Assembly (NCBI RefSeq): GCF_004088395.1
Contig: NZ_CP035107.1
Span: forward strand, 1,441,001-1,505,000
DNA from: Ornithobacterium rhinotracheale
Lineage (GTDB): Bacteria; Bacteroidota; Bacteroidia; Flavobacteriales; Weeksellaceae
Direction: 5' to 3'
Length of the DNA: 64,000 nt
The position numbers and the translations under genes are program-made. A model generated the notes under the pieces. It saw only the letters and a list, made by a program, of their open reading frames with translations. It had not been told where the DNA came from and searched no databases. This document shows positions 37,702 through 55,952 of the stretch, one piece after another (within the stretch, counting starts at the first letter, position 1; each line of letters starts with the position of its first letter).

Positions 37702-38247
37702 ATGTTTGAACAAGTTGTCGTAAAACCAAACAAAATATATTTAGCCATTTTATTGGGCGTGTGCTTTCTTTTTTTACTTACAATCGCTGGCGTAAGCTTT
37801 TACACTGCAATTGACAAAGGAAGTAACCTTTTGTTGATGATTGCCATTATGCTTTTTGTGCTAATTGCAATTACTCTTTATTTAGATTTTTCATTGCCAC
37901 TCAAAATCATTGCAGATGAAAACAGCATTTCTTTTGAAAATAGAAAATATGCTTTAAACCAAATTAAAAATTTAAAACTTAATACCCAAAAACTAAGATT
38001 CACAAGACAAGCCGAAGTTGCCGCAATTGTTTTTGATGACGGCAAAAAATTGATTTCACCCAATTATTTTTATCAAAATTTAAAGAATTTAAAACTATTA
38101 TTCTATCAAGTTGTTCAGCAAAAAGAACATTTCACTCCGATTGAAATCAAACCTGTGCTAAAACGCGAAACCTTCAACGAAAAAATTAGAACAGAACTCG
38201 CACAACGAAACATTGCACTACAAGATGAAATTTATGAAAAAACTTAA
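37702..38247 (+). CDS. Membrane protein with a PH-like domain, unknown function
   Basis: 181 residues: two adjacent membrane helices at about residues 13-35 and 42-62, then a soluble domain with DFSLPLKIIADENSISFENR and short beta strands. This arrangement resembles bacterial PH-like membrane proteins. It is flanked by terminators and stands alone. No function can be assigned. Confidence 0.7.
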   Translation: MFEQVVVKPNKIYLAILLGVCFLFLLTIAGVSFYTAIDKGSNLLLMIAIMLFVLIAITLYLDFSLPLKIIADENSISFENRKYALNQIKNLKLNTQKLRFTRQAEVAAIVFDDGKKLISPNYFYQNLKNLKLLFYQVVQQKEHFTPIEIKPVLKRETFNEKIRTELAQRNIALQDEIYEKT

Positions 38248-38267
38248 TATTATTTCTTATATTTAGG

Positions 38268-38299
38268 GCGGATTTTGAGGCACTCTCAAAATCCGCTTT
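38268..38299 (+). terminator. Terminator after the PH-like membrane protein gene
   Basis: A 12-bp perfect stem (GCGGATTTTGAG / CTCAAAATCCGC) with a 5-nt loop, then TTTA. The T run is short, so it may be weak. Confidence 0.75.
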
Positions 38300-38321
38300 A
38301 ATTTAATACAAGCCTTAGGAA

Positions 38322-39737
38322 ATGGAAAATATTAGTGTTTTTGATATGCTCAAAATCGGTGTGGGACCTTCAAGCTCGCACACTTTGGGACCATGGCGTG
38401 CGGCTCAGCAATTCTTGGAAGAATTAAAAATTCGTAACATTTTTGATTTAGTCAATGGGATTCAAATCGATTTATACGGCTCGCTCTCGCTCACGGGAAA
38501 AGGACACGCCACGGACTTGGCAATCCTCCTAGGATTAAGCGGAACCGACCCCGTAACTATCCCTGTGGAAAGCATCGATAGCATCATTGGGCATATCAAA
38601 ACGCATCACAACCTGCTTCTAGATAATCAAAAGACTATTTATTTTGATTTTGAGCAAATAAAATTCAACAAAGAATTCCTCCCCTATCACGCCAATGGAA
38701 TGAAAATCACCGCTTTTCTTGAAAATGGCGAAAACTACGACTCTACCTTCTACTCTATCGGCGGTGGATTCATCACCAAAGAGGAAACGGAGGAAATGGT
38801 AGACTTATCTGAAAACCAATCATTCCCCTACCCTACGAATAAGGCAAAAGACCTACTACACTATTGCAAAGAGCTTGGGCTAAGCATCTCCGATGTTGTG
38901 ATGCAAAACGAATTAAGCGTGCGCTCCAAAGAGGAAATAGAGCATCAATTAAAAGCCATTTGGAAAGTTATGCTCGAATCCATTTATGTAGGTTGCCACA
39001 CCGAGGGCTTCCTCCCTGGGGGCTTAATGGTGCGGCGACGCGCTTATGATATGTATCAAAAGCTTAAAGACCCGCGCTTCCCCTACACACACCCTAGTAA
39101 TTGGGTAAAAAGCATTCGCAAAACACGAATGTTCTACCGCGAAATATTCAAATGGGTATCCACTTTTGCCATTGCCGTAAACGAGGTAAACGCCTCACTA
39201 GGGCGCGTAGTTACAGCACCCACCAATGGCTCTGCGGGCGTAATCCCTGCGGTATTGATGTTTTACCTATGTGTAGAAAACCATAAAGCCGGCTTTGAGG
39301 AAATCAAAAAATTCCTGCTCACTGCGGGCGTAATCGGCAGCATCTTTAAACGCAACGCAACGATTTCTGCCGCTATGGGTGGTTGCCAAGCAGAAATTGG
39401 CGTATCATCGGCTATGGCAGCAGGCGCCCTCTGCGAGCTGCGAGGCGGAACACCCGAGCAATGCTTAAATGCTGCTGAAATCGCTATGGAACACCACTTA
39501 GGGCTCACCTGCGACCCTGTGGAGGGCTTAGTACAAATTCCGTGCATTGAGCGTAATTCTATGGGTGCCATCAAGGCCATTAATGCCTCTGAATTAGCCC
39601 TCGACGCCGAGCACCCAAAAGTCTCGCTAGACCATGTGATTCACACCATGTGGCAAACGGCCAAAGATATGAACTCTAAGTATAAGGAAACCTCTGAGGG
39701 CGGACTAGCGGTGAGCGTTAAATTAGTAGATTGCTAG
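38322..39737 (+). CDS. sdaA: L-serine ammonia-lyase, iron-sulfur type
   Basis: Deaminates serine to pyruvate using a 4Fe-4S cluster. A single chain of 471 residues with the beta domain first ([20 protein letters not shown]), then the alpha domain with [16 protein letters not shown] and [15 protein letters not shown]. Cluster cysteines are likely in [13 protein letters not shown] and the C-terminal cysteine. It is monocistronic. Confidence 0.95.
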
Positions 39738-39874
39738 CTCTTAACCTAAGCTTTTAATACTAAATTTATCCCCTAAAAGCTCTAAATTATAAACCTTCTT
39801 AGGATATAATAAACGAAACAAGCCTTTAAAAGAGTATATTCAACGGCTTTTTTCGCTTTAATCAATAGTTAAAT

Positions 39875-39912
39875 AACCTATTGCAGGGGGTTCCGAACCT
39901 ATTACAGGGGGT
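39875..39912 (+). repeat. Tandem direct repeat AACCTATTRCAGGGGGT
   Basis: Two 17-bp copies at 39875-39891 and 39896-39912 differ at one base and are spaced 21 bp, about two helical turns. A third partial copy (AACCTAT) is at 39927-39933. The phasing and position 70-110 bp before the trxB -7 box suggest a regulator site, but a simple repeat cannot be excluded. Confidence 0.55.
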
Positions 39913-39983
39913 AAATAACTAGGCCGAACCTATATAAATAGTGATATTAAACACAAGTAATAGAATATCCCATTTTAATTTAA

Positions 39984-40954
<971 letters not shown>

Positions 40955-40978
40955 TTCTTCCACAATCTTTACCCATAC

Positions 40979-41005
40979 AATCCTCAAGCAATTGAGGATT
41001 TTTTT
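40979..41005 (+). terminator. Rho-independent terminator after trxB
   Basis: A 9-bp stem (AATCCTCAA / TTGAGGATT) with a 4-nt loop followed by T5. Confidence 0.85.
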
Positions 41006-41086
41006 ATCTAAAAAATTCAAAGAAAAAGCATTTATTCCTATTTTTTCACTACTTTTATGCTTTAAAAAATTAAAACCTATAAACTT

Positions 41087-41686
41087 ATGATACATTTTAA
41101 AATAGGCGATAAAGTAAAAGTCATCGACGATAATCTCAATGGCACGGTAACAAAAGTAACTGAAAACGAAATCACAATTGAAACAGATTTTGGCTTTGAG
41201 ATGAAATACGAGCCTAATGAGCTTTTGCCTGATGTGGGAATGGAGGAAGAGATTGAGTTTTCAGCACTCACCCCTAAAAAAGAGGTTAAAAAATCTACTC
41301 CAAAGAAAAAAAAGGTAGAAAAAGTTTTTGATACGCGCACCCAAATGCCTGCTATTAAAACTGAAAAAGAAAAAGTCTCTAAAAAAACTAAAAAGATTAG
41401 AAAGCCCCCGCTAGAAATAGATTTGCATTATGCACAATTAGAGAATTACGACCGATTATTGGCTAAAAATTTAATCCTAGCACGGCAGATGAACTCACTA
41501 AAAAAGCGGGTGGAAAGAGCCCGCGAACACGGGTATGACCGCGTGGTTATTATCCACGGCAAAGGAGAAGGCATCTTGGAAGCCGAAGTAAAAAAATGGC
41601 TAAATGAAATGGGCTATCATTTTTATGATGCAGATTTTCAGCGCTACAAACTAGGCGCCACCGAGGTGGAATTGCCAAAGTTTTAA
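41087..41686 (+). CDS. Smr domain protein (DUF2027-like N-terminus)
   Basis: 199 residues: an N-terminal KOW-like small barrel (IGDKVKVIDDNLNGTVTKV), a lysine-rich linker (about residues 65-105), and a C-terminal Smr domain with IDLHYAQLENYDRLL and VVIIHGKGEGILEAEV. Smr domains bind or nick nucleic acids (MutS2 type), and recent work links some to ribosome rescue. The exact role here is unknown. Confidence 0.87.
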   Translation: MIHFKIGDKVKVIDDNLNGTVTKVTENEITIETDFGFEMKYEPNELLPDVGMEEEIEFSALTPKKEVKKSTPKKKKVEKVFDTRTQMPAIKTEKEKVSKKTKKIRKPPLEIDLHYAQLENYDRLLAKNLILARQMNSLKKRVERAREHGYDRVVIIHGKGEGILEAEVKKWLNEMGYHFYDADFQRYKLGATEVELPKF

Positions 41687-41706
41687 AACTTTCAAACTAT
41701 ATAAAA

Positions 41707-41734
41707 AAGCGGATAATTAAAAAATTATCCGCTT
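41707..41734. terminator. Bidirectional terminator between the Smr gene and rplI
   Basis: A 12-bp perfect stem (AAGCGGATAATT / AATTATCCGCTT) with a 4-nt loop between convergent genes. Confidence 0.88.
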
Positions 41735-41762
41735 CCCTTGTTTAATTTAAATAATCTGCCTA

Positions 41763-42209
41763 TTATTCTGGTACAATGTCAAATGATATTTCAGTTTGCA
41801 CACTTCTGTGAGGCTTCACAATCGCTGTGTAAGTACCTAATCTCTTGATATTTCTACCTAAAATAGAGACATGTTTGCGCTCCACTTGAACACCTTTTTG
41901 GTTCAACAAGTCAGTTAAATCTGCGTTGTTTACAGAACCGAAAAGTTTATCTCCCTCACCTACCTTAGCTGCGATTACTAGTTCAAGCCCTTTAACGGCT
42001 TCAATGATTTTATTAGCCTCCGCGATAAGAGCCTCTTCGTGAGCTTTTCTATCTTCTAAAACTTTGTTTAATTCCTCAATATTCTTAGGAGTAGCCAATT
42101 TAGCTAAGCCTTGAGGGATTAAGAAGTTTCTTCCGTAACCCGGTTTTACTGAAACTACTTCAAACTCAAAACCTAAGTTTTCTACATCTTTTGTTAATAT
42201 TACTTGCAT
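41763..42209 (-). CDS. rplI: 50S ribosomal protein L9
   Basis: 148 residues with the N-terminal rRNA-binding domain (MQVILTKDVENLGFEFEVVSVKPGYGRNFLIPQGLA in pattern), the long central helix and the C-terminal domain. It is last in the rpsF-rpsR-rplI operon. Confidence 0.97.
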   Translation of the reverse strand: MQVILTKDVENLGFEFEVVSVKPGYGRNFLIPQGLAKLATPKNIEELNKVLEDRKAHEEALIAEANKIIEAVKGLELVIAAKVGEGDKLFGSVNNADLTDLLNQKGVQVERKHVSILGRNIKRLGTYTAIVKPHRSVQTEISFDIVPE

Positions 42210-42228
42210 TTTAGTTTCTTATTTTGGG

Positions 42229-42531
42229 TTATTTTAATAAATCTGTTTCAAATGGTAATAAAGCTAAATGGCGCGCTCTTTTAATAGCTTGAGCCACTTT
42301 TCTTTGGTATTTTAAAGAAGTGCCTGTGTATCTTCTTGGTAAAATTTTACCTTGCTCGTTCACAAATTGTAGTAAAAAATCTGGGTCTTTATAGTCTACA
42401 TATTTGATTCCGAATTTTTTAAATCTACAGAACATTTCAGTAGATTGAGTTTCAATATCGATTGGAGTCAAATAACGGATTTCTGATTCACCGCCTTGCT
42501 CTACTTGTTTTGCTAATTCATCAATTGCCAT
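42229..42531 (-). CDS. rpsR: 30S ribosomal protein S18
   Basis: 100 residues; the core [20 protein letters not shown] and [20 protein letters not shown] are typical of S18. The N-terminus is extended by about 25 residues relative to E. coli, as is common in Bacteroidota. Second gene of the operon. Confidence 0.96.
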
Positions 42532-42542
42532 AGTTGTATTTT

Positions 42543-42884
42543 TTATTTGTTAGACGATGCTTTTTGTTTTCTTCTATCCTCAGCCCACTCCACGCCGTGC
42601 TTATCTAATTTCACGGTCAAGTAGCGTAGCACGCGCTCATCACGCTTAAACATCAATTCTAAATCTGCTACCACATTTCCAGCGCCTTTCCACTCTATTA
42701 AGTGGTAAAATCCATTTCTCTTCAATTGAATAGGGTAAGCCAATTTGCGTAATCCCCAATTTTCTTGGTGTACAATCTCTGTACCTCTTTCCTTCAAGAA
42801 GTTTTCAACTTTTTTAACTGCTTCCTCCACCTGAGAATCAGACAGAACGGGAGTTAAAATGAAAACAGTTTCGTAATGATTCAT
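42543..42884 (-). CDS. rpsF: 30S ribosomal protein S6
   Basis: 113 residues starting [20 protein letters not shown], with [20 protein letters not shown], the core of S6. It heads the operon with rpsR and rplI; S6 and S18 bind each other on the 30S platform. Confidence 0.97.
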
Positions 42885-42909
42885 TTTATATGTTTTTTAA
42901 ATTGAGGCG

Positions 42910-42917
42910 CAAATATA
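42910..42917 (-). promoter_or_regulatory. Promoter -7 box of the rpsF operon
   Basis: TATATTTG read leftward, 25 bp before the rpsF ATG; no clear -33 element. Confidence 0.45.
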
Positions 42918-43056
42918 GGAATTATTTTTAATATCACAGCCTTTTTTAATGACTTTTTTTATATTAATCACCTGTAAATCATTTTTTGATAGCCCCTAGA
43001 TAATCCTTCAATGCCCTCAAAAACGCAAAAAAATAATTTCATTTATCAAAAATAGC

Positions 43057-43064
43057 TACCTTTG
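43057..43064 (+). promoter_or_regulatory. Promoter -7 box of the flippase gene
   Basis: TACCTTTG, 24 bp before ATG 43089. It overlaps the longer alternative start at 43062 and so supports the shorter protein. Confidence 0.5.
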
Positions 43065-43088
43065 TTTTTTCCAAAAATAAGAATAAAA

Positions 43089-44558
43089 ATGGGCATTGTT
43101 GCACGGCAAAGCATAAAATACTCTCTCATAGGCTACCTCGGTTTCGCGCTGGGGACATTAGCTGTAATCTTCTTATTTCCAAATGATTTAGAATTCTACG
43201 GAAGATTGCGCTACATACTCTCCACCGCCGAAATGTTTTTACCATTTGTAGTGCTTGGCATCTCCTTCTCTAATGTTAAATTTTTCTACGAGGCGCAAAA
43301 GGTAGGCAAGCACCAGAATTTCCTATGGCTAAGCCTTCTAAGTATAATTTTCAGTTTCTCAATATTTTCAGCACTATTTTTTAGCGCTAACTGGCTATTC
43401 CCCAGCATTAAAGAATCTTCAGCTTGGAACTTAAAAACTTTAATCCTCCCTTTAATTTTAATTTTAGCCCTAAACGCTATTTTAAACAAATACATTTCAA
43501 ATTTTAAGCGAATTGCAATTCCCAATATTTTTGAAAACTTATTCCCAAAAATCGCTAATATTGGAGCATTTTCACTATTCTTTTACTTAGGTTTTGGCGA
43601 AAAAGTAGCCTATACCTTTTTCCTCGGAATGTTTGCTATCTCACTTTTGTGCTACATTTTTTATGCCCACAAACTAGAAAAACTCCGGCCAGATTTCAGC
43701 CTTAACTATCTAAAAAACAACCAACTTTGGAGGAAAGTAATCAATTATAGTTTATATGGCTTCTTGGGCAACATTGGGCATTACATAGCACTGCGTGTGG
43801 ATAATTTTATGATTGGCGAGCTCATCGGCTTCGAATCCAATGGAGTGTACAGCATCATCTTAGCTATTTTATCATTTATGATGATTCCTCAAATGGGCAT
43901 CAACAATATTTCCGCGCCAATCATCAACCAATATTTAGAGGAGACAAATTACATTAAATTAAATCAATTTTATCAAGAAAGCGCATTCCAACTCTTCTTT
44001 CAAGGGCTAATAATTTTCGCCTGCATCGTGCTCGGCTTTCCCTATCTTTCAAGCCTAATCAAAAATGGAGACAAACTCCTTGAATCCTTCCCAATACTCT
44101 GCATATTAGGGACTTCAATGCTATTCGACCTTGCAACAGGCTTTAATGGGCATATTATTTCCCTCTCTAAATATTACCGAATCAACATTGTGATTATGCT
44201 GTTTTTAGCCACTCTCACAATTAGCTTAAACTTAACATTTATCAAAGGCTTTAACTTAGGGCTTTTTGGCGTCGCATTATCTACTGCCATATCGCTCACA
44301 ACATTCAATATCACAAAAATCTACTTTAACTGGGCAAAATTCGGAGTATTCCCATTGAGCAAAAAAATGCTAAGTACCTTAGCTTTAATCGGAACCGCCC
44401 TCTTCATCGCCCTCCTACTTCCTGACAGCAAAACTACTTGGCTTAACTTAATTTACAAACCCCTGACTTTAATCACATTAACATTTATCGGAAATCAGAT
44501 TTTCGGTATTTTTCCCTTGATTGAATATCTTAAAAAATTAAGAAAAAAGAAACTTTAA
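43089..44558 (+). CDS. Polysaccharide biosynthesis / oligosaccharide flippase family membrane protein
   Basis: 489 residues with about 12-14 membrane helices, starting MGIVARQSIKYSLIGYLGFALG. This N-terminus and the central RVDNFMIGELIGFESNGVYS segment are typical of Wzx-like flippases of the MATE/MOP superfamily. It may move a lipid-linked glycan across the inner membrane. No glycosyltransferase genes are nearby. It is convergent with the tracrRNA, and their ends are 3 bp apart. Confidence 0.87.
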   Translation: MGIVARQSIKYSLIGYLGFALGTLAVIFLFPNDLEFYGRLRYILSTAEMFLPFVVLGISFSNVKFFYEAQKVGKHQNFLWLSLLSIIFSFSIFSALFFSANWLFPSIKESSAWNLKTLILPLILILALNAILNKYISNFKRIAIPNIFENLFPKIANIGAFSLFFYLGFGEKVAYTFFLGMFAISLLCYIFYAHKLEKLRPDFSLNYLKNNQLWRKVINYSLYGFLGNIGHYIALRVDNFMIGELIGFESNGVYSIILAILSFMMIPQMGINNISAPIINQYLEETNYIKLNQFYQESAFQLFFQGLIIFACIVLGFPYLSSLIKNGDKLLESFPILCILGTSMLFDLATGFNGHIISLSKYYRINIVIMLFLATLTISLNLTFIKGFNLGLFGVALSTAISLTTFNITKIYFNWAKFGVFPLSKKMLSTLALIGTALFIALLLPDSKTTWLNLIYKPLTLITLTFIGNQIFGIFPLIEYLKKLRKKKL

Positions 44559-44560
44559 TA

Positions 44561-44630
44561 AAAAAGCGACCCTCACAGGCCGCTTTGAATGTTTTCACAA
44601 CGGAATAATCCTTATTGTGAATTGCTTTCG
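44561..44630 (-). ncRNA. tracrRNA of the type II-C system
   Basis: Read leftward, the predicted RNA begins (about 44630) with the anti-repeat GAAAGCAATTCACAA (44629-44615). This is an exact complement of 15 nt (positions 2-16) at the 5' end of the crRNA-sense repeat. Then comes a nexus-like hairpin region (ACAATAAGGATTATTCCGTT) and a terminator hairpin (AAAGCG / CGCTTT arms, 44563-44586) with a T run. The predicted length is about 70 nt, unusually compact because the start falls at the first base of the anti-repeat. A 29-bp block of it is repeated in the RNA at 44674-44887. Confidence 0.88.
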
Positions 44631-44634
44631 ACAG

Positions 44635-44665
44635 CAAATGTATTTATTTCTTTTGAATTAACAAA
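44635..44665 (-). promoter_or_regulatory. Promoter of the tracrRNA
   Basis: Read leftward: TTTG (44665-44662), exactly 19 bp, TACATTTG (44642-44635). A perfect Bacteroidota consensus placing the start at about 44630. Confidence 0.8.
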
Positions 44666-44673
44666 ATGTTCTA

Positions 44674-44887
44674 GAAAAAAAGTGACTCCAAAGAGCCACT
44701 TTAGGTGTTTTCACAACGGAATAATCCTTATTGTATTTTTTTTCATAGAAAAAAATTACAACTCATATAATGATTGTACACCAAAGAATTAAAACAATCA
44801 AACCATGCTGGATTAAATGTCAGAACATTAAGTGATGTCTTAAAATATCTAATGAGAATATCTTCAGTATTCACTAGTTTAATTTAT
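44674..44887 (-). ncRNA. Candidate natural single-guide RNA (tracrRNA paralogue with built-in repeat hairpin)
   Basis: Read leftward from its own promoter, the RNA has a ~105-nt leader, then a 20-nt guide-like segment (44782-44763, ending TCATTATATGA). Next is a repeat-like strand GTTGTAATTTTTTTC (44762-44748), a UAU loop, and the anti-repeat-like strand GAAAAAAAATACAAT (44744-44730). The two strands form a 15-bp stem with one mismatch. A 29-bp block follows that is identical to the tracrRNA nexus (44734-44706 versus 44618-44590), then a terminator hairpin (AAAGTG / CACTTT arms) with seven T. The part from guide to terminator is about 109 nt, the layout of an engineered single-guide RNA. The guide matches DNA at 44930-44947. 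Known analogues: tracr-L (type II-A) and scaRNA (type II-B). Confidence 0.75.
44743..44874 (-). other. Short open frame in the leader of the single-guide-like RNA
   Basis: A GTG-started frame of 43 codons (VNTEDILIRYFKTSLNV...) begins about 12 nt after the predicted transcript start and stops within the loop of the repeat-like hairpin. It resembles no family I know and may be chance, but translation of it would run through the guide segment. Confidence 0.2.
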
Positions 44888-44891
44888 GGTG

Positions 44892-44922
44892 CAAAGATAA
44901 ACAAAATTATTCAATGTACAAA
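44892..44922 (-). promoter_or_regulatory. Promoter of the single-guide-like RNA
   Basis: Read leftward: TTTG (44922-44919), exactly 19 bp, TATCTTTG (44899-44892). A perfect consensus, divergent from the cas9 promoter with about 50 bp between the two -33 elements. Confidence 0.75.
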
Positions 44923-44929
44923 TGCGTAA

Positions 44930-44947
44930 TGTACGATTATTATATGA
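44930..44947 (+). promoter_or_regulatory. Putative Cas9 autoregulatory target site between the two divergent promoters
   Basis: TGTACGATTATTATATGA matches the guide segment of the neighbouring RNA (TGTACAATCATTATATGA) at 16 of 18 positions. The nine positions nearest the repeat side match without a gap. The flank on the PAM side is TAAAATG; the PAM of this Cas9 is unknown. The site ends 26 bp before the cas9 -33 element and begins 8 bp upstream of the RNA gene's own -33 element, so bound Cas9 could repress both. Confidence 0.6.
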
Positions 44948-44973
44948 TAAAATGTTTTTTTATTAATTTATTA

Positions 44974-45004
44974 TTTGAAATAAAATATACTTTTATTAAC
45001 TTTA
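44974..45004 (+). promoter_or_regulatory. Promoter of cas9
   Basis: TTTG (44974-44977), exactly 19 bp, TAACTTTA (44997-45004; last base off consensus), 20 bp before the cas9 ATG. Confidence 0.65.
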
Positions 45005-45024
45005 CACTTTAAAATAAGTAGATT

Positions 45025-48000
45025 ATGAAAAAAATACTAGGATTAGACATAGGCACCAATAGTATTGGTTGGGCATTAACAGAACAAGATTTTGACAATA
45101 AAAAAGGAAGAATTATTGATTTAGGGGTGCGGATTATCCCTATGAGTCAGGATATTCTTGGTAAATTTGATAGTGGCGTTTCCATTTCACAAACGGCAGA
45201 AAGAACAAGGTATAGAGGTGTTCGTCGTTTGCGAGAACGGCATTTGTTGCGTAGAGAGCGTTTGCATCGTGTGCTGAACATTATGGATTTCCTACCCGAG
45301 CACTATGCTCAAAGTATTGATTTTGAAAATCGGAAAGGGCAATTTATTGATAATAAAGAAGTGAAACTAAATTATATGCCAGAAGAAAACGGAAAATTCA
45401 CCTTTATTTTTCAAGATTCTTTTCAAGAGATGTTGCAATTGTTCAAGGATAATGGATATAGCGAAAATGTTCCTTACGATTGGACTTTATACTTTCTTAG
45501 AAAAAAAGCTTTACAGCATAAGATTAGCAAGCAAGAACTCGCCTGGCTCTTATTAAATTTCAACCAAAAAAGAGGATACTACGAATTGCGTGGAGAGGAA
45601 GAAGAAGTAGACACAACAAAAGTGGAAGAATTCTATGCTCTAAAAGTAGTTTCGGTAGAAGAAGACAAAAATAGCAGTGCAAATTGGTATTTAGTACATT
45701 TAGAAAACGGTTTTATTTACAAAAAGAAAAGCACAAAACCATTAGATGATTGGGTGGGAAAGACCAAAGAATTTATCGTAACTACAACCTTAGATAAAGA
45801 TGGGACACCTAAAAAGGATAAAGATGGAGATATCAAAAGAAGTTTTCGTATGGTAGACTCTGAAAAAGATTGGATTGCTATCAAAAAGAAAACCGAAAAT
45901 GATATCAATAATTCGGGAAAGCAGGTAGGTACTTACATTTTTGATACGCTGTTGAAAAATCCTACTCAAAAAATCAATGGAAAACTAGTGAAAACCATTG
46001 AGCGTAAATACTACAAAGAGGAGTTAAAAGCCATTTTAAAAAAGCAAAAGGAATTTCATACAGAGTTAAATAACAAAGATTTGTATTATGCTTGTATTGA
46101 AGAACTTTACCCTCATAATGAGGCACATCGAAGCAATATCAGCGACAAAGATTTTACTCACCTTTTCGTAGATGATATTATTTTCTATCAAAGACCTTTA
46201 AAAAGTAAAAAATCAACCATCTCAGATTGCTCTTATGAAGTTAAAAAATATACCAAAGATGGGGAGAAATTAGAAAAACCCTTGAAGTGTATCTCAAAAT
46301 CTCATCCTTTATATCAAGAGTTTCGATTATGGCAATTTATTCAAAACCTTAAAATCTATAAAAAACAAGGAGTTAATGAGAAAGGCGAAGTTCAAATCAA
46401 TCAGGATATTACACAGCAATTACTACCCGATGAGGAAGCCTATACAAATTTGTTTGATTTTCTGAATGAACTGAAGGAAGTTGAACAATATCAATTACTA
46501 AAATATTTTAGTGATTTAAAAAAACTTCCTAAGATCTCAAAGTCTGAATCAGCATATACTTGGAATTATGTAGAGGATAAAAAATATCCGTGTAATTCTA
46601 CACATTCTACCTTTGTTTCGAGATTAAAAAAAGTAAAAGGAATAGATGCAGAGACTTTTTTAACAAAGGAAGTGGAGCAACATCTATGGCATATTATATA
46701 CTCTGTAAAAGACAAAAAGGAGTTTGAAAAAGCCCTAGGAACATTCGCAGAAAAATATGCTATTGATAAAGAGAGTTTTGTTGAGAATTTTAAAAAATTT
46801 CCGCCTTTTTCCAACGATTATGGTGCCTATTCTGAAAAAGCATTGAAAAAATTAGTTCCGCTAATGCGTATTGGGAAATATTGGTCTGAAAACGATATTT
46901 CAGATACCACCAAAGAAAATATTTCAGACATTATGGAGCGTTTAGAGGCTATCAATTTTGAAAAAGAAAAATTTAAAAGTGTAACCGATGATTTGGTTTC
47001 TAAACAATTATTAAAAAGCTTTGCTTCGTTCAAGAGTAAGAATCCATTAAAGGGATTAAACACCTATCAAGCTTGCTATGCAGTATACAAAAGACATTCC
47101 GAAGCAACAGAAATCACTCAGTGGAAAAGCCCAAAAGATATAGAACATTATTTGAATCATATCTTTAAGCAACATCAACTAAGAAATCCTATTGTAGAGC
47201 AAATTGCCACAGAAACCTTACGATTAGTTCATGATATTTGGGAATACTACGGAGATGGTGCGGATAATTTCTTTTCAGAAATACATGTAGAACTAGGTAG
47301 AGAGATGAAAAATCCTGCCGATAAGAGAAAAAAAATATCGGAGAAAAATACGGAAAGAGAGAATACCAATCAACGAATTAAGGCAATTTTAGAAGAATTA
47401 GCCAATGATGATTCTATGGAGGTAAAACCACGACCTTATTCCCCAAGTCATCAGGAAATATTGAAAATTTATGAGGAAGGTGTTTTCGAAAATCAAGAGG
47501 CAAGTGATGAAATAAAAAATATTCGCAAATCTACTTCACCTACCAAATCTCAGATTTTGAAATACAAACTTTGGTTAGAACAAGGCTATGTTTCGCCATA
47601 CACTTTGCAGATGATTCCTCTGACCAAATTATTCTCAAGCCAATATCAAATTGAGCATATCATACCTCAATCCCGCTATTTTGATGATTCTATGAATAAT
47701 AAAATCATTTGTGAAAGTGTAATCAATGGAGAAAAAGGCAATGCAACAGCTTATGAATTTATTAAAGCTCGAGGGGGAGAAAAATTTGATTTAGGTCAAA
47801 ATAAAATCGTAACCTTAGCCAAATTTGATGATTATGAAGCACACTGTTCAAAATATTTCAGAAAAAATCGCCTAAAACTCAAAAATTTGCTGGCAGATGA
47901 GATTCCTTCTGGATTTATTGAGCGACAACTCAACGACAGCCGATATATCAGTAAATACATCAAAGGCTTATTGAGCAATATTGTACGAGAAGACGGAGAA

Positions 48001-49629
48001 AATCAAGTTACGGCTAATAGATTGGTGCCCGTAAATGGTACTATTACAGCTAAACTTCGCCACGATTGGGGACTTAATGATAAATGGAATGAAATCGTTC
48101 AACCAAGATTTGAGAGAATGAACGAAATTACCAATAGCCAAGATTTTGGTTTTTGGGATAAAAGTATCAACGCCTTCAGAATACAAGTGCCAGATGAAAT
48201 TTCTAAAGGGTTCAGCACCAAGAGAATTGACCACAGACACCACGCTTTAGATGCCTTGGTGGTAGCTTGTACCACAAAAGATCATACCAACTATATCACC
48301 TCATTGAATACCGAGCGGAAAAACTTTTCATTGGTAAAAAAATTGAGAGAAGTGGAAGAAGTTTATAAAAATGACCCCATTACCAAAGAAAGAAAGTTGG
48401 TAAAAGTGGCTAAGGCATACAAAAGGCCTTGGGATGGATTTACTTTGGAAGCAAAAAACAAATTAGAAGAAATCGTTGTTAGTTTCAAACAAAATCTGAG
48501 AGTAATCAACCGAGCCAATAATAAATTCCAAAAATGGGTAGAGCAACCTAATGGTCAATATAAAAAAGAATGGGTAGAGCAGAAAGGAAAAAACTTTGCC
48601 ATTAGAAAACCTATGCATAAAGAAACTGTTTCTGGAAAAGTTTATGTAAAGCAAGAAAAAAAGGGTACAGTGGCTGTAAACAACGCTCTAAACGATTGGG
48701 AGTTGATAAAAGATGATGCTATTAAAGAGCAAGTAAAAAAACTCATCAAGCAATTCAAGGGGGATATAAGCTTGGTTAAAAAGCATTTAAAGGAACATCC
48801 TATAAAAAAAGAAGGCAAAAAAGTTGAGAGAATAGAAGTTTTTGAATTTGTAGAAGCCACAGCATCGCGTAGCGAACTCAACGATAAATTCACTCAAAAA
48901 CAATTAGATTCAGTAACAGACTCAGGAATTCGTAAAATCTTACAAAATCATGTCAATAAATATGTAGATAAAAAAGGAAACTTAGACTTTTCTAAGGCAT
49001 TCAGCCCTGAGGGAATAGAAGCGATGAATGCCAATATTCAAGAATTAAACGGAGGAAAGCCACATCAGCCTATTTATAAAGTACGAATTTATGAAGTGGG
49101 CAATAAATTTTCTGTTGGCGAAGTAGGTAATAAAAAAGATAAATATGTAGAAGCAGCTAAAGGAACGAACTTGTTTTTTGCTATTTATTGGGATGAAGAA
49201 ACGAAAAGACGAAATTATGAAACCGTGCCACTAAACGAGGTAATAGAACATCAAAAACAAATGGTGCACCTACCAAAAAGTGAAAGGACGGAACTTCCTA
49301 TAAGACCAGAAAATGGTAAGTTTTTGTTTAGTCTATCACCTAATGATTTAGTATTTGTTCCCACGCAAGAAGAAATGGACAATCCAAATTCTGTGGACTT
49401 TAACAACCTTACAAAAGAGCAATCAAGCAGAATATATAAGATGGTGAGTACAACTCAGAACAAGTTAGATTGTGTCCCTGTACACTATGCTTCACCAATA
49501 ATTAACAACGAAATGGGAACAAACAACAAAAGTCAGAACACAATTGATAATCAACAACAAATTAAAGAAGTTTGTTGGAAGTTAGAAATCGACCGTTTAG
49601 GAAATATTAAAAGAGTTATTCGAAATTAG
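45025..49629 (+). CDS. cas9: Type II-C CRISPR-associated endonuclease Cas9
   Basis: An RNA-guided double-strand DNA nuclease of 1534 residues. RuvC-I is at the N-terminus (GLDIGTNSIGWAL, D8), followed by the arginine-rich bridge helix (YRGVRRLRERHLLRRERLHR). RuvC-II is IHVELGRE (E756). The HNH domain has IEHIIPQS (H878) with N892 and N901 at the spacing seen in other Cas9s. RuvC-III is DHRHHALDA (H1073, D1076). About 455 residues follow as wedge and PAM-interacting region. It is large for II-C but usual for Bacteroidota. cas1 follows after 7 bp. Confidence 0.97.
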   Translation: MKKILGLDIGTNSIGWALTEQDFDNKKGRIIDLGVRIIPMSQDILGKFDSGVSISQTAERTRYRGVRRLRERHLLRRERLHRVLNIMDFLPEHYAQSIDFENRKGQFIDNKEVKLNYMPEENGKFTFIFQDSFQEMLQLFKDNGYSENVPYDWTLYFLRKKALQHKISKQELAWLLLNFNQKRGYYELRGEEEEVDTTKVEEFYALKVVSVEEDKNSSANWYLVHLENGFIYKKKSTKPLDDWVGKTKEFIVTTTLDKDGTPKKDKDGDIKRSFRMVDSEKDWIAIKKKTENDINNSGKQVGTYIFDTLLKNPTQKINGKLVKTIERKYYKEELKAILKKQKEFHTELNNKDLYYACIEELYPHNEAHRSNISDKDFTHLFVDDIIFYQRPLKSKKSTISDCSYEVKKYTKDGEKLEKPLKCISKSHPLYQEFRLWQFIQNLKIYKKQGVNEKGEVQINQDITQQLLPDEEAYTNLFDFLNELKEVEQYQLLKYFSDLKKLPKISKSESAYTWNYVEDKKYPCNSTHSTFVSRLKKVKGIDAETFLTKEVEQHLWHIIYSVKDKKEFEKALGTFAEKYAIDKESFVENFKKFPPFSNDYGAYSEKALKKLVPLMRIGKYWSENDISDTTKENISDIMERLEAINFEKEKFKSVTDDLVSKQLLKSFASFKSKNPLKGLNTYQACYAVYKRHSEATEITQWKSPKDIEHYLNHIFKQHQLRNPIVEQIATETLRLVHDIWEYYGDGADNFFSEIHVELGREMKNPADKRKKISEKNTERENTNQRIKAILEELANDDSMEVKPRPYSPSHQEILKIYEEGVFENQEASDEIKNIRKSTSPTKSQILKYKLWLEQGYVSPYTLQMIPLTKLFSSQYQIEHIIPQSRYFDDSMNNKIICESVINGEKGNATAYEFIKARGGEKFDLGQNKIVTLAKFDDYEAHCSKYFRKNRLKLKNLLADEIPSGFIERQLNDSRYISKYIKGLLSNIVREDGENQVTANRLVPVNGTITAKLRHDWGLNDKWNEIVQPRFERMNEITNSQDFGFWDKSINAFRIQVPDEISKGFSTKRIDHRHHALDALVVACTTKDHTNYITSLNTERKNFSLVKKLREVEEVYKNDPITKERKLVKVAKAYKRPWDGFTLEAKNKLEEIVVSFKQNLRVINRANNKFQKWVEQPNGQYKKEWVEQKGKNFAIRKPMHKETVSGKVYVKQEKKGTVAVNNALNDWELIKDDAIKEQVKKLIKQFKGDISLVKKHLKEHPIKKEGKKVERIEVFEFVEATASRSELNDKFTQKQLDSVTDSGIRKILQNHVNKYVDKKGNLDFSKAFSPEGIEAMNANIQELNGGKPHQPIYKVRIYEVGNKFSVGEVGNKKDKYVEAAKGTNLFFAIYWDEETKRRNYETVPLNEVIEHQKQMVHLPKSERTELPIRPENGKFLFSLSPNDLVFVPTQEEMDNPNSVDFNNLTKEQSSRIYKMVSTTQNKLDCVPVHYASPIINNEMGTNNKSQNTIDNQQQIKEVCWKLEIDRLGNIKRVIRN

Positions 49630-49636
49630 TTTAACT

Positions 49637-50864
<1,228 letters not shown>

Positions 50865-50936
50865 AATAAAAAAATAAGAAATTTTATATCCGATAATCAA
50901 AAAAAGAATAAAAATCACCATCCTATAAAATCGCAA

Positions 50937-50969
50937 AATCCACTGTTTTTCAGTGGATTAAATTTTGAG
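50937..50969 (-). terminator. Hairpin between the array and cas2, likely terminator of array transcripts
   Basis: A 9-bp perfect inverted repeat AATCCACTG / CAGTGGATT (50937-50945, 50951-50959) with a 5-nt loop. It lies just beyond the last leftward repeat, followed in that direction by TTTTGCGATTTTAT. The T run is broken, so termination may be partial. Confidence 0.45.
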
Positions 50970-52500
50970 GTTGCGAACTATCGCAAAGATAGTAAAAATT
51001 TGAAAGCAATTCACAACAGCTGCAGCTGTTGCAACAATAGCTACAATGTTGCGAACTATCGCAAAGATAGTAAAAATTTGAAAGCAATTCACAACGCATT
51101 TGGAAAAAAGGCGGTATTTATGGTTGTTGCGAACTATCGCAAAGATAGTAAAAATTTGAAAGCAATTCACAACGTTTCCACCCTAACAGATATAACCAAT
51201 CTTGTTGCGAACTATCGCAAAGATAGTAAAAATTTGAAAGCAATTCACAACGTTAGCACGGTATTATTACACTTTTTCAAGGTTGCGAACTATCGCAAAG
51301 ATAGTAAAAATTTGAAAGCAATTCACAACTTATACTGAAAGCAAAGAACACTTCATTAAGTTGCGAACTATCGCAAAGATAGTAAAAATTTGAAAGCAAT
51401 TCACAACTCCTTCAAGGAAGTCGCACGCACACGATTGGTTGCGAACTATCGCAAAGATAGTAAAAATTTGAAAGCAATTCACAACACCTAAGTATTTATC
51501 ACATAGATATTGTTCGTTGCGAACTATCGCAAAGATAGTAAAAATTTGAAAGCAATTCACAACACTGTTGACTACAGTAAAAAAATTCCTGAAGTTGCGA
51601 ACTATCGCAAAGATAGTAAAAATTTGAAAGCAATTCACAACTCAGCTTCTACAATGTGATATTCTTCAACAGTTGCGAACTATCGCAAAGATAGTAAAAA
51701 TTTGAAAGCAATTCACAACAAACCAAATAACATTCTCTATATCTTGATTGTTGCGAACTATCGCAAAGATAGTAAAAATTTGAAAGCAATTCACAACATT
51801 GGATTCTAACCGCATAATATAGGATTGGTTGCGAACTATCGCAAAGATAGTAAAAATTTGAAAGCAATTCACAACACAACTGCATCATTACTTTGCTTCA
51901 TGATTGTTGCGAACTATCGCAAAGATAGTAAAAATTTGAAAGCAATTCACAACAAATTAAGCATATAGGCGTAACCTATCAAGGTTGCGAACTATCGCAA
52001 AGATAGTAAAAATTTGAAAGCAATTCACAACACAGCTTCATCATTACTTTGCTTCATGATTGTTGCGAACTATCGCAAAGATAGTAAAAATTTGAAAGCA
52101 ATTCACAACGTCTTTTATTCTCTTTTATAGCTTCATCAAGTTGCGAACTATCGCAAAGATAGTAAAAATTTGAAAGCAATTCACAACCTGGAGTTTCTTA
52201 TATTATGATTCCCCGCCCGTTGCGAACTATCGCAAAGATAGTAAAAATTTGAAAGCAATTCACAACATCGGTGATTTTGCTCGTTTCAGCGACATGGTTG
52301 CGAACTATCGCAAAGATAGTAAAAATTTGAAAGCAATTCACAACTCGTTCGGCGTAGGTTCCTCATACCTTACGGTTGCGAACTATCTCAAAGATAGTAA
52401 AAATTTGAAAGCAATTCACAACAGTATGGCTTTTGGTTCGTAGATTTAATAGGTTGCGAACTATCGCAAAGATAGTAAAAATTTGAAAGCAATTCACAAC
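50970..52500 (-). CRISPR. CRISPR array, 20 repeats of 48 nt and 19 spacers, transcribed leftward
   Basis: Repeats begin at 50970, 51048, 51126 and so on at 78-bp steps to 52453. Spacers are 30 nt except the 16th (52188-52218), which is 31. All repeats are identical except the 19th (52375-52422), with one G-to-T change. In the crRNA sense (minus strand) the repeat starts GTTGTGAATTGCTTTC, complementary to the tracrRNA anti-repeat, which fixes the orientation. Each repeat has a 6-bp hairpin (ACTATC / GATAGT) that contains TATCTTTG, a promoter -7 box. Spacers 12 and 14 are 28/30 identical. Confidence 0.97.
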
Positions 52501-52560
52501 CTTCTATTCACCCCACCAACTACCGTTCAGCAGCGTAAAACAACGGTTCGGGAAGTTATT

Positions 52561-52592
52561 TTTGTGTGCTTTTGGGGCGAGGACTATCTTTG
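52561..52592 (+). promoter_or_regulatory. Promoter of the truncated secreted-protein gene
   Basis: TTTG (52561-52564), 20 bp, TATCTTTG (52585-52592), 26 bp before the ATG at 52619. Confidence 0.6.
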
Positions 52593-52618
52593 CTTCATCA
52601 TCTTAAAAGCATATCAAA

Positions 52619-52735
52619 ATGAAAACAAGATTTCAAACCTCAAAATGGGCATTGGCACTCGGTTTTACCGTGATTTCTTACCTTGCTTACGCCCAAACCA
52701 ATTGTAAATCGTCAGCAAAAAGTTTACCAGTTTAG
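52619..52735 (+). pseudogene. Secreted-protein gene cut off after its signal peptide by an IS3 remnant
   Basis: 28 native codons encode a signal peptide (WALALGFTVISYLAYAQTN). At 52703 the IS end begins and adds CKSSAKSLPV and a stop. The promoter and start are intact, but the mature protein is lost, so its identity cannot be told. Confidence 0.75.
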
Positions 52736-53007
52736 GTTAAAAATAGTATAGTTAAAAAAATAAAAAACTAACTTTACAAAAACCACTTAGAACATGGTAA
52801 AAAAACAAACAAAAAGCGAAAAGCTTATCAAGGAAGTTCGCCGTAACACACGACAAGTGTACAATGCAGAACAAAAGATTTTACTTATCTGTAGCCCAAA
52901 AGACATATACCTACACAGATAAGACTAAATTTAAATCAAAGAAAACCAAGTAAAAATAAATACTTTAAAACAATAAAAATTAAATTATTGTTTTAGACTT
53001 ATTTAAT
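52703..53007 (+). mobile_element. IS3-family remnant, internally deleted (copy 3)
   Basis: The left end (TGTAAATCGTCAGC) and the first ~80 bp of orfA (ATG at 52794) match the IS3 copies at 54952-55645 and 62234-63073. After about 52883 it jumps to a diverged version of the other end (orfB 3' part and its flank, about 52905-53007). All of the catalytic region is missing. Confidence 0.8.
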
Positions 53008-53124
53008 ATTTTTATCATAAATTTTATTTTGTGCCATTTATAAATATTAGTTTTATATTAGGAAACATTTCATTAAACTGCTCTACAAGATGCACAATAA
53101 GGACTTTTAGTTCCTGACATATAT
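53008..53124. other. AT-rich spacer without a recognised feature
   Basis: Between the IS3 remnant and the immunity-like gene; I see no gene or strong hairpin. Confidence 0.5.
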
Positions 53125-53445
53125 TTAGGATTCCCAATATTTTTTAATAAATTCCAAAATCTTTGATTTTATATCTTGTAGGTCAGTATATCTTTCTGAC
53201 CAATTATGGCTCTTCATAGATTCATCATTTTTTGAAATATAATCAAAGTATAAATAATTATCTTTATATATTAAAATTATTCCTGAGTTATTTATATCCT
53301 CTACTTCTATTTTTAAAACACTTACATCCGCAAAAGGCATTTCTTCTCTATATATTTCTTCTCTAAAAAAAATTTGAGCTTCTTTCATTTCATTTAATGA
53401 TTTAAACCATCCTTTTAAATTTAATAATAATTCGTTAAAGTCCAT
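53125..53445 (-). CDS. Putative immunity protein for an adjacent polymorphic toxin
   Basis: 106 residues, acidic, no signal peptide, starting MDFNELLLNLKGWFKSLNE. I do not recognise the family with certainty. Before the miniature IS inserted upstream, the toxin frame would have ended AATGGACTTTAA, overlapping this ATG by 10-11 nt. That coupling is the typical order of toxin C-terminus then immunity gene. Confidence 0.6.
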   Translation of the reverse strand: MDFNELLLNLKGWFKSLNEMKEAQIFFREEIYREEMPFADVSVLKIEVEDINNSGIILIYKDNYLYFDYISKNDESMKSHNWSERYTDLQDIKSKILEFIKKYWES

Positions 53446-53474
53446 TTCTATCTATTATTTTAATATTTGATACT

Positions 53475-53727
53475 ACCCGTAGTGCATTATCCAAATGAGA
53501 TTAATTTATTGTGATATTGAATGATAATCAGGAAGATCATTTTCGCCAATATTCCCAAAGAAAGGAAAAATTTTCGTTTTCTTCGCTGCAAACGAGCCTT
53601 TCAATTTTAGATAAAAATAAAATTGCAACTTGTCCCTAGGCGGCTTGTAATTTTATTTAATTGAAAACCAGTAAAATTCACTATTCTTCCGTCACATGAG
53701 CAACCTTTTTTATAATGCACTACGGGT
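53475..53727 (-). mobile_element. Miniature IS982-derived element (internally deleted relative of the IS at 16057)
   Basis: 253 bp with perfect terminal repeats ACCCGTAGTGCATTAT and flanking duplication TTGATACT (53467-53474, 53728-53735). Reversed, its first part matches the left end and first transposase codons of the 16057-17030 element (GGTTGC, CCTAGGGACAAGTTGCAATTTTATTT-like). Its last part matches that element's 3' end (GAATATTGGCGAAAATG; ATTCAATATCACAATAAATT). The middle two thirds of the transposase are missing and the rest has diverged, so it is non-autonomous. Confidence 0.85.
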
Positions 53728-54157
53728 TTGATACTTTTGGTTGTGATACATCTAGTCCTTTTTTATTATAGAATTTCCAACGAGGAGAACCTTTTTCATA
53801 AAAAATTCCCCAGCCTTTGCCACTTCCTCGAGTAATAGTTGTATTCTTAGGAATATCAAACTCTACATACATTTTTCCAGCAATATCTCTATAATGTTCT
53901 TTTCCTTCTAAAAGAATATGAGTTATCCCTCCACTTCTTTTCTGTAGTTGAGAAGTTTTTACCATTTTTTGATATTCTGCTTTACTCATCCAAGAACCAA
54001 CTCTACTTCTCTTAATAGTTGTTATAATATTTTCTCCTTTTCCCCAAGCTAACCTTGCTGATTTTAATAATGATACCTTCTCAAATATCCTCTTAGCATC
54101 GCCTTTTTTTATTTTTTTAACTTTTCGGATTTCCTCAATAGCGCTTTGGGAGAGCTT
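53720..54157 (-). pseudogene. Orphan C-terminal toxin domain, both ends damaged
   Basis: The frame runs open right after the stop of the upstream immunity-like gene, with no start codon until ATG 53989. It encodes KLSQSAIEEIRKVKKIKKGD, then ENIITTIKRSRVGSWMSKAE, then QKRSGGITHILLEGKEHYRD, then AGKMYVEFDIPKNTTI and GKGWGIFYEKGSPRWKFYNK. The MSKAEYQ..V / YVEFD / GKGWG pattern resembles TreTu-type polymorphic toxins. The last native residues (NIKIIDRNGL) were displaced by the miniature IS and the frame now ends VSNP. It has no N-terminal delivery region. Confidence 0.65.
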
Positions 54158-54454
54158 CTATCCCTTTGTGTTATTCTCCGAACAAATTGAATTTACAATA
54201 TCTTCTACATTTTTTAATACTTTAATAAATTCCTCATAAATATTATCATTTAAATCGTTTAGCAATCCTGTTTCGTATAATATTCTACTGAAATTATTAA
54301 TCTTATTAGCTATAGAACAATACTGTTTTTTATTTTTTTGATTTAAAATCTTTATGGAATTATCAATATCTTCATATCTATACTTTGAATTAAATTCATT
54401 GTATAATATTTCTTGTAACTTAATTAGCTCTAACTTTAAAAGTTCATCTTTCAT
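54158..54454 (-). CDS. Hypothetical helical protein, possible immunity protein
   Basis: 98 residues from ATG 54454 (MKDELLKLELIKLQEILYNE), all-helical, no signal peptide. It lies between two toxin fragments in the typical place of an immunity gene. Its stop codon is directly followed, in the same frame, by the next toxin fragment. Family not recognised. Confidence 0.5.
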   Translation of the reverse strand: MKDELLKLELIKLQEILYNEFNSKYRYEDIDNSIKILNQKNKKQYCSIANKINNFSRILYETGLLNDLNDNIYEEFIKVLKNVEDIVNSICSENNTKG

Positions 54455-54524
54455 AATCAATTATTTAGTTCGCCCTAATCAAATTAGGAAATAAAGTTTT
54501 AAACTCCTCCAAAGAATAAGTTTT

Positions 54525-54755
54525 TTATTCATAAACTTTCGCAGCTAAAAAAATTTCCGTAAGATTTTTCCAACTAATCTCATCTGTTAAAGAATCTTGA
54601 ATATATCCCATCATTCCATCTAAAAATAAATCAATTGTATCGTTTACCCAATCATTTTTATTTTTATAATCATCAATTAAAAAAGTAAGAAATTGTATAA
54701 AATCTTGCTTAGAGGTTACTTTTTTCGCAAATTCATATATATTATCTGTTTTCAT
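54525..54755 (-). CDS. Putative immunity protein (DUF7660-like)
   Basis: 76 residues, acidic. NDWVNDTIDLFLDGMMGYI and SWKNLTEIFLAAKVYE resemble a DUF7660-type immunity protein (W.N.t...fL). Its ATG overlaps the stop of the upstream toxin fragment by 4 nt (ATGA), which indicates a coupled toxin-immunity pair. Confidence 0.65.
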   Translation of the reverse strand: MKTDNIYEFAKKVTSKQDFIQFLTFLIDDYKNKNDWVNDTIDLFLDGMMGYIQDSLTDEISWKNLTEIFLAAKVYE

Positions 54756-54997
54756 TTTATTTTTCTTATTTCTATTGTTTTACCTTCGTTTTTTGTTGTG
54801 AATTTAAACATTTCACTTTCTGGTATTTTATCTAATTTTGTATATGGTATGTCTATTCCTGCCTCTTGAAATACTTTAAGGCGTCTATTATCTAATGTGT
54901 ATATTAATCCATCTTTTTCTACAATTCTAATAGCAGGAATAGTTTTTGGATTGTACATCGTCAAACTAAAGTTTACTGAGGCTAATATAGTAAACAA
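54752..54997 (-). pseudogene. Polymorphic toxin C-terminal fragment (ParB-like DNRR motif), 5' end replaced by IS3
   Basis: Native sequence runs from 54951 leftward: NPKTIPAIRIVEKDG followed by IYTLDNRRLKVFQEAG and FKFTTKNEGKTIEIRK. This resembles the ParB-like DNRR toxin tips of RHS and other polymorphic toxins. The first ~14 residues of the open frame (MFTILASVNFSLTM) are encoded by the end of the IS3 element. The delivery part of the toxin is therefore gone; an in-frame ATG straddles the IS end, so the tip might still be expressed. Confidence 0.7.
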
Positions 54998-55645
54998 TTA
55001 AATAAGTCCAAAACAATAATTTAATTTTCTTTGATTTAAAGTATTTATTTTCACTTGTTTTCTTAGTTTTAAGATTTGGTCTTGTCTACCTAGGTATACA
55101 TCTTCAGGGGTTAAATTATTTAAAGCTTCGTGATATCTTTGCGTGTTGTAATATTGCACAAATTTATCAATTGTGAATGCCTAATTGCTTTAAAGTCCTA
55201 TTAACGCCTAATTCAGAGTTTTTCACCACCTCTATAATCTCTGCTTTTTCTTCTGCCGTTAGTCTCATATATTTTTTAAATTGAGGGGTTAATCCAACAG
55301 ATTTAAGCTTTTTTTTACAATGTCATAACGAATAACCAAATCGGCCAAAGACTCCTTCAATACGGTATTTTCTCTGCGTAAATCTTTGACTTCCTCACTG
55401 GTAGCTTCTCTTGTTTCGTTACCCGAAAGACGTTTCTTTCCTGCTTCAATGAACTCTTTGCTCCATTTGTAATAAGTAGCTTCGCTGATGCCATATTTTC
55501 TACACAGATCTGCTACACTGAGCTCTGCACGTATTTTGTTTGTTTTTTTACCATGTTCTAAGTGGTTTTTGTAAAGTTAGTTTTTTATTTTTTTAACTAT
55601 ACTATTTTTAACCTAAACTGGCAAACTTTTTGCTGACGATTTACA
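54952..55645 (-). mobile_element. IS3-family remnant, internally deleted (copy 1)
   Basis: Ends TGTACATCGTCA (54952) and, on the other strand, TGTAAATCGTCA (ending 55645) are the terminal repeats. Inside, the 3' part of orfB (GRQDQILKLRKQVKINTLNQ in reverse) is joined near 55180 to unrelated or decayed sequence. orfA follows with a ~90-bp deletion (near 55536). There is no intact transposase. A target duplication is not evident. Confidence 0.8.
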
Positions 55646-55952
55646 TTTTTTAACTGTATTTTTCTTAATTTTTTCTTTATCTCGGAAATAAAAAAGCCTG
55701 CAGGATCCAAATTTTCTTAACATTATTAAATGTGATTTAAAAAATAAACGCTATAAACTCAATTTAGATTTATCACATTTTCATTGATTAAAGTAAGCAA
55801 CATAAACCCCATATTTTTTAACTATATTTTAATATTTTAATTGTAACAAAACCACATTTTTTCCGTATACATAAAACAGAGCTTTCGCTAAAACCTTGAA
55901 AGTTTGAAGGCTTATTTCACTGAAAATTAAATATTAAAACTAAAAACACCAT
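55646..55952. other. Intergenic region between the IS3 remnant and rpoD
   Basis: No gene seen. A half terminator (AAAAAAGCCTGCAGG, 55689-55703) without its second arm suggests a truncated neighbour. The promoter of rpoD must lie here, but no full consensus is evident. Confidence 0.5.

Follow-up and report, generated by a model that had tools for sequence, protein, structure and literature searches.

A type II-C locus with a second tracrRNA-like unit

The DNA analyzed here (the window) is a stretch of 64,000 nucleotides from Ornithobacterium rhinotracheale (contig NZ_CP035107.1, positions 1,441,001 to 1,505,000), whose genome of 2.25 Mb forms a single contig. The window carries a Cas9-encoding clustered regularly interspaced short palindromic repeats (CRISPR) locus with a gene for the trans-activating CRISPR RNA (tracrRNA) and, on the minus strand between that gene and cas9, a second unit of tracrRNA type, which is the subject of this study. 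The initial annotation had read this unit as a natural single-guide RNA (sgRNA) gene that directs Cas9 to its own promoter. The underlying observation is confirmed and stands well above chance: judged from the letters of the DNA, the unit is a separate sgRNA-like gene, a paralogue of the tracrRNA gene, that matches the region upstream of cas9.

The protein-coding genes of the locus lie on the plus strand and comprise cas9 (45025-49629; 1534 aa; TIGR01865, E 3e-123), a type II cas1 (49637-50545; TIGR03639), and cas2 (50526-50864; TIGR01573). They are followed by a CRISPR array on the minus strand (50970-52500) with 20 repeats of 48 nt and 19 spacers of 30-31 nt; we infer from pairing with the tracrRNA that the minus strand is the CRISPR RNA (crRNA) sense of the array. 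The tracrRNA is encoded on the minus strand at 44560-44629, starting with an anti-repeat (44614-44629), all 16 nt of which pair with the array repeat, and continuing with the nexus and a terminator (44560-44587). A motif scan predicted the tracrRNA promoter at 44635-44665 on the minus strand (TTTG-19-TACATTTG) and the cas9 promoter at 44974-45004 on the plus strand (TTTG-19-TAACTTTA). Since the array stands directly 3' of cas2, we classed the locus as type II-C. The csn2 gene is a mark of type II-A; it was absent from the locus, where cas9, cas1, and cas2 lead directly into the array, and neither csn2 nor cas4 was searched for elsewhere in the genome.

The nearest relative of a housekeeping protein of the genome, L-serine ammonia-lyase (95%), bears the name of an O. 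rhinotracheale metagenome-assembled genome. The closest relative of this Cas9 was 93% identical and carried the name of Riemerella columbina, a member of another genus (genome G311), whereas the sole full-length match within the same genus reached 49%. This discrepancy suggests that the II-C locus has probably moved between genera. Two features of the array are worth recording. Its repeat contains TATCTTTG, a -7-like box in the crRNA sense from which one repeat differs by one base, so that transcription of crRNAs may begin inside the repeats. In addition, two spacers (51876-51905 and 52032-52061) mismatch at only 2 of 30 positions, and their targets were not found.

The second unit has the layout of a single-guide RNA

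All elements of the second unit are on the minus strand. Its predicted promoter (44892-44922) consists of TTTG (-33) and, after 19 nt, TATCTTTG (-7). The exact motif TTTG-19-TAnnTTTG, which we take to be a promoter type of the Bacteroidota, occurs five times on both strands of the window, and two of the five occurrences are the promoters of the second unit and of the tracrRNA. As 111 bp separate the end of the -7 box from the guide, transcription is predicted to start near 44886 rather than at 44782, as first proposed, and to yield an RNA of ∼210 nt. The position of the promoter thus implies a 5' leader of ∼105 nt (44781-44886), which has no strong match elsewhere in the genome. The leader is followed by an 18-nt guide (44763-44780) that abuts the repeat-like strand of a hairpin (44748-44762, GTTGTAATTTTTTTC), by a UAU loop (44745-44747), and by the anti-repeat-like strand (44730-44744, GAAAAAAAATACAAT). 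A comparison with the tracrRNA verified the reported identity over 29 nt, nexus included (44706-44734), and an intrinsic terminator (44676-44703) closes the unit.

The hairpin at 44730-44762 has the sgRNA layout and the UAU loop that had been described, but the stem is made of 14 pairs out of 15, one position being an A.A opposition, and not of 15 full pairs. Its folding energy was -7.9 kcal/mol, and an equally good fold was obtained in 3 of 2000 dinucleotide shuffles. The terminator (-12.1 kcal/mol) was not equaled in any of 2000 shuffles, which together with the motif at 44892-44922 bears out the claim that the tandem unit has a promoter motif and a terminator to itself. Folding z scores were -4.9 for the 108-nt module and -2.65 for the predicted 210-nt transcript.

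We then compared the possible pairing partners of the second unit. The duplex of its anti-repeat with the array repeat was predicted at -2.8 kcal/mol with 6 pairs, compared to -21.2 kcal/mol and 16 pairs for the tracrRNA anti-repeat, and the two strands of the second unit pairing in cis reached -9.2 kcal/mol with 14 pairs. With such weak pairing to the array repeat, the second unit could hardly act as a second tracrRNA, and the loss of this pairing leaves two options, a guide RNA that is complete in itself or a copy heading to decay. The latter possibility, a decaying or near-neutral tracrRNA duplicate whose match upstream of cas9 arose by chance as an inverted repeat in A+T-rich DNA, is in our estimation unlikely. 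It would account for the A/T-rich stem, and decay would abolish pairing with the array repeat just as well. However, the changes that separate the unit from its paralogue are compensated in two helices, and a promoter motif and a terminator are present. Relative to the array repeat and tracrRNA, the hairpin shows G:C to U:A and C:G to U:A double changes, one paired deletion, and one broken pair (the A.A); relative to the tracrRNA, the terminator stem has a C:G to U:A double change at two places and, at a third, a U.G to C:G change that improves the pair, with none broken. Being few, these compensated changes are supportive of selection on the stems but not conclusive.

The guide matches a site between two divergent promoter motifs

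The 18 nt of the guide match a protospacer-like target on the plus strand (44930-44947) at 16 positions, with a perfect 9-nt seed on the side of the protospacer-adjacent motif (PAM). Counted from that side, positions 1 to 9 match, positions 10 and 13 mismatch, positions 14 to 18 match, and beyond position 18 only one position in six agrees. We evaluated this match, which had been noted initially, against two null models. In the first, the guide was kept fixed and the region 44787-45024 was replaced by 40,000 Markov versions; in the second, the real region was kept and 40,000 random guides were tried. Matches of at least 16 of 18 positions arose 12 times with the Markov regions and 16 times with the random guides, corresponding to 3-4 in 10,000. 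When the 9-nt seed was required as well, the counts fell to 7 and 6, respectively; the seed alone was common (1069 and 533 of 40,000). In the whole genome, the target is the only other site with at most two mismatches to the guide, and two more sites have three; the control with the reversed pattern gave one site within three mismatches. Finally, when all 18-mers of the second unit (n = 230) were slid along 44923-45024, the maximum fell exactly at the boundary between guide and repeat-like strand. Chance is a poor explanation of the guide-target match, and both its low probability and the uniqueness of the target in the genome speak against a decaying duplicate.

The target was first described as lying just upstream of the cas9 promoter. 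It does lie 26 bp upstream of the -33 box of cas9, but it is nearer to the second unit's own -33 box, which it precedes by 7 bp, and thus sits between two divergent promoter motifs.

The two 18-mers form an imperfect inverted repeat flanking a segment that contains a promoter motif, an arrangement that would also be expected if 44763-44947 were an invertible promoter segment or a small mobile element. We regard this origin as very improbable. The region 44735-45024 has no other good copy in the genome (next match at E 0.0125), which makes a mobile element unlikely, and the boundary of the hairpin is exactly where the repeat ends. Moreover, no recombinase was recognized among the 14 of 20 open reading frames (ORFs) in 38000-56000 to which an identity was assigned or which were compared with a family library; 3 of these 14 remained without a family, and the search did not extend to six overlapping or in-array frames or to the rest of the genome.

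The sequence next to the target partly resembles known PAMs

The PAM-side flank of the target (44948-44957, plus strand) reads TAAAATGTTT, giving TAAAATGT as the candidate PAM-side sequence. We compared it with PAMs of other Bacteroidota Cas9 proteins, which may not share their specificity with the Cas9 of this locus. The PAM of Fp2Cas9 is given as NNAAAG (PMC10309648) and was refined to SNAAAG, with G or C favored at position 1 (PMC12609912); the flank fits the AAA of this motif. For Riemerella anatipestifer, a motif GWATTN is reported that precedes the protospacer (PMC6008519). Reoriented to the 3' side, it becomes NAATWC, with which the flank agrees in part.

The array spacers did not yield a PAM for this system. 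Searches with 9 of the 19 spacers (S1, S2, S3, S6, S9, S12, S14, S17, and S18) recovered no protospacer, these searches covering neither plasmids nor spacers S4, S5, S7, S8, S10, S11, S13, S15, S16, and S19. Exact scans of viral contigs with 20-27-nt spacer patterns gave no match, phage searches gave nothing or weak matches at E of at least 0.2, and S12 and S14 matched only the array itself in 320 genomes of the family.

Other tandem and fused tracrRNA units

To put the second unit in context, we looked at other places with two tracr-type copies. Among the 24 genomes of the family that were searched for nexus copies, two copies lay within ∼0.6 kb of each other in this genome, in G092, and in G093. 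The second copy in G092 has no sgRNA-like hairpin, and that in G093 (L044), which is near cas9, has diverged and looks decayed. In L044, the anti-repeat remnant is split from the nexus by a segment whose ends are inverted and which may be a small mobile element. These two genomes show what other second tracr copies look like, in contrast to the unit studied here. More broadly, a second nexus (at least 20 of 24 positions) was found in the fetched stretch at 5 of 148 distinct tracr-type places, namely, this locus, G092, G093, L088, where the two copies are 2.8 kb apart, and L197. The last of these (genome G342) carries near-identical tandem tracrRNA copies ∼745 bp apart, promoter region included. 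The existence of tandem copies elsewhere and the decayed appearance of the one in G093 are what a decaying duplicate would lead us to expect, and so is the fact that the second unit is a single instance.

A scan of GTDB genomes for the fused pattern of repeat-like and anti-repeat-like strands returned 91 stretches, each matching once. When these were sorted by a loose rule, 52 had a -7-like box in the matched part, 11 had no tracr-type nexus, and 28 were others. The 52 were discarded as ordinary tracrRNAs whose promoter, reading GTTGTATnTTTG and similar, had been matched. From their folds and by eye, we judged that L081, L131, L140, and L161 from GTDB and L171, one of four viral contigs matching the pattern, are real fused hairpins. 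A further locus, L209, was reached by another route. In plasmids, only short matches to the nexus region were seen, in three records.

These loci differ in their makeup. L131 and L081, from two Bacteroides species, share a fused hairpin, nexus, terminator, and similar upstream sequence, and are possibly array leaders fused to a tracrRNA; in the L131 genome, the cas9 matches fall into two open frames, one of 818 aa and the other of 657 aa. At L161, a CRISPR array finishes with a repeat that is joined directly to the anti-repeat and nexus of the tracrRNA, so that this end of the array would code for a natural sgRNA; the L161 genome gave no match to the Cas9 of our locus. The same holds for the Massilibacteroides metagenome-assembled genome with L140, which has a fused hairpin, nexus, and terminator. 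L171, on an IMG/VR contig classed as viral, combines a 12-bp perfect hairpin with nexus-like sequence and a terminator and is a candidate for an RNA that imitates a Cas9 guide. At L209, in a genome of the genus Bacteroides (G339), a degenerate repeat with a promoter-like box, a spacer, and a repeat precede the tracrRNA, i.e., a one-spacer array is fused into the tracrRNA to form a natural sgRNA-type gene; its 3.1-kb stretch contains no cas9 match. The L209 guide has no other site with up to two mismatches in its genome and eight with three. Within the fetched stretches, the best guide match was 13-15 of 20 for L081, L131, L161, and L171 and 13 for L140.

A model for the function of the second unit

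We lean toward the interpretation that the second unit is a tracrRNA duplicate that yields a natural sgRNA, whose guide would take Cas9 upstream of cas9 and lower its expression. Transcription would start at ∼44886, and the RNA would then load into Cas9, as the unchanged nexus suggests. The loaded Cas9 would bind 44930-44947 and is expected to do so without cleavage, because positions 10 and 13, counted from the PAM side, are mismatched and few positions match past position 18. Repression would result from crowding of the divergent promoter pair. As the target is closer to the RNA's own -33 box than to the cas9 box, the RNA would probably curb its own production as well as that of cas9. The proposal of a duplicated tracrRNA gene acting as an autoregulator in a II-C system is maintained as to the separate sgRNA-like paralogue and its match; as to function, a site upstream of the core cas9 promoter and nearer the RNA's own promoter makes repression of cas9 a likely role, but not the only one. 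We give about even weight to the more specific proposal that a dedicated sgRNA gene arose by tandem duplication of the tracrRNA gene in a II-C locus that had moved horizontally, and that its RNA stations an active Cas9 between the divergent promoters, where Cas9 sets its own level, so that cas9 autorepression would have been reached apart from tracr-L (a single RNA of type II-A systems, described below), via duplication and not via a longer isoform.

Several results weigh against the favored interpretation. The target is outside the core cas9 promoter, and its flank has a T at the first position, where the refined Fp2Cas9 motif has G or C, and a T instead of G at the sixth. When the 210-nt transcript is folded to minimum energy, the guide becomes paired with leader sequence, a pairing that is missing from the centroid; it may be a control element or may argue against the model. 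The hairpin is A/U-rich, so the apparent compensation could partly be drift into A and T runs. The duplex energy of the hairpin ranks only 14th, tied with L140, among 172 nexus-bearing units, some of which are chance matches; what makes the second unit stand out is the combination of guide match and position, not hairpin energy. The fused pattern was present in one of the 320 family genomes, this one, and the G311 genome, with its 93% identical Cas9, lacks the second unit and has a compact cas9-tracrRNA interval. For the conservation and guide-target covariation that the initial annotation proposed to look for in related genomes, neither the family genomes nor the GTDB scan offered a second instance. 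Lastly, no cas9 match was found in the fetched stretches (3.1-13.5 kb) of L081, L131, L140, L161, L171, and L209.

The RNA could also be real and bound by Cas9 and yet act as a Cas9 sponge or as a posttranscriptional regulator, not through the DNA upstream of cas9. A complete Cas9-binding scaffold could conceivably compete with the crRNA:tracrRNA duplex with no need for a target, and a small CRISPR/Cas-associated RNA (scaRNA) of a II-C system that acts on mRNA is reported in Neisseria meningitidis (PMC13431127). The specific match beside cas9 would then be a coincidence, and we hold this alternative to be quite unlikely.

If the repressor model is correct, a II-C sgRNA gene would reveal convergent evolution of Cas9 self-control, given that autorepression by tracr-L has been described for type II-A. 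The gene would also provide a natural model for building compact guides in one piece for the long Cas9 proteins of Bacteroidota, and it would suggest how a newly acquired cas9 is tamed.

Comparison with known systems

The closest parallel is tracr-L of the Streptococcus pyogenes II-A system, which reportedly represses Pcas. Like the second unit, it is a single RNA that combines guide and scaffold; it includes a nexus, its guide is partial and addresses the DNA that precedes the cas genes, and in both cases the match is too weak for cutting to be expected. The two differ in that tracr-L is a longer product of the tracr locus itself, made from a second promoter and working with an NGG PAM (PMC11417352), whereas the second unit is a distinct paralogue in tandem with the tracrRNA gene, has a promoter motif and terminator of its own, and belongs to a II-C system. 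The effect of tracr-L was imitated by a designed crRNA with 11 matching nucleotides (PMC11417352).

Other RNAs share part of this design. The scaRNA of the Francisella novicida II-B system is likewise a small RNA of the CRISPR locus that redirects Cas9 onto host DNA, but its repression is reported to depend on the tracrRNA, whereas the second unit has its own anti-repeat and nexus in cis and a target beside cas9. The N. meningitidis scaRNA is, like the second unit, a regulatory RNA associated with a II-C system and binds Cas9, as is predicted for the second unit; it is reported to act on the 5' region of the efeO mRNA (PMC13431127), and the available part of that paper does not mention tracr-L. 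A predicted II-A RNA of Listeria monocytogenes SLCC2428 also contains two repeat-homologous segments that could pair (PMC6199352); it differs in its type, in being known from computation only, and in that the available text describes no guide to cas9. Racr RNA anti-CRISPRs similarly mimic CRISPR parts with RNA, but the second unit is chromosomal and lies beside cas9.

In silico, scaRNA:tracrRNA pairs have been proposed for some II-A and II-C systems (PMC6199352), and a survey of structured RNAs modeled a Bacteroidetes II-C tracrRNA (PMC9067536), the word "tandem" being absent from the available portion of the latter. No tracrRNA paralogue aimed beside cas9 is described in what was available of PMC6199352 and PMC13431127. 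Literature searches, to which subscription papers were mostly inaccessible, returned no paper combining "tracr-L" and "type II-C" and, among the matches listed (titles and beginnings of abstracts), no II-C RNA aimed at cas9. Compared with these systems, the second unit is most likely a cas9 autoregulator that would work like tracr-L but is encoded by a paralogous gene of its own in a II-C locus.
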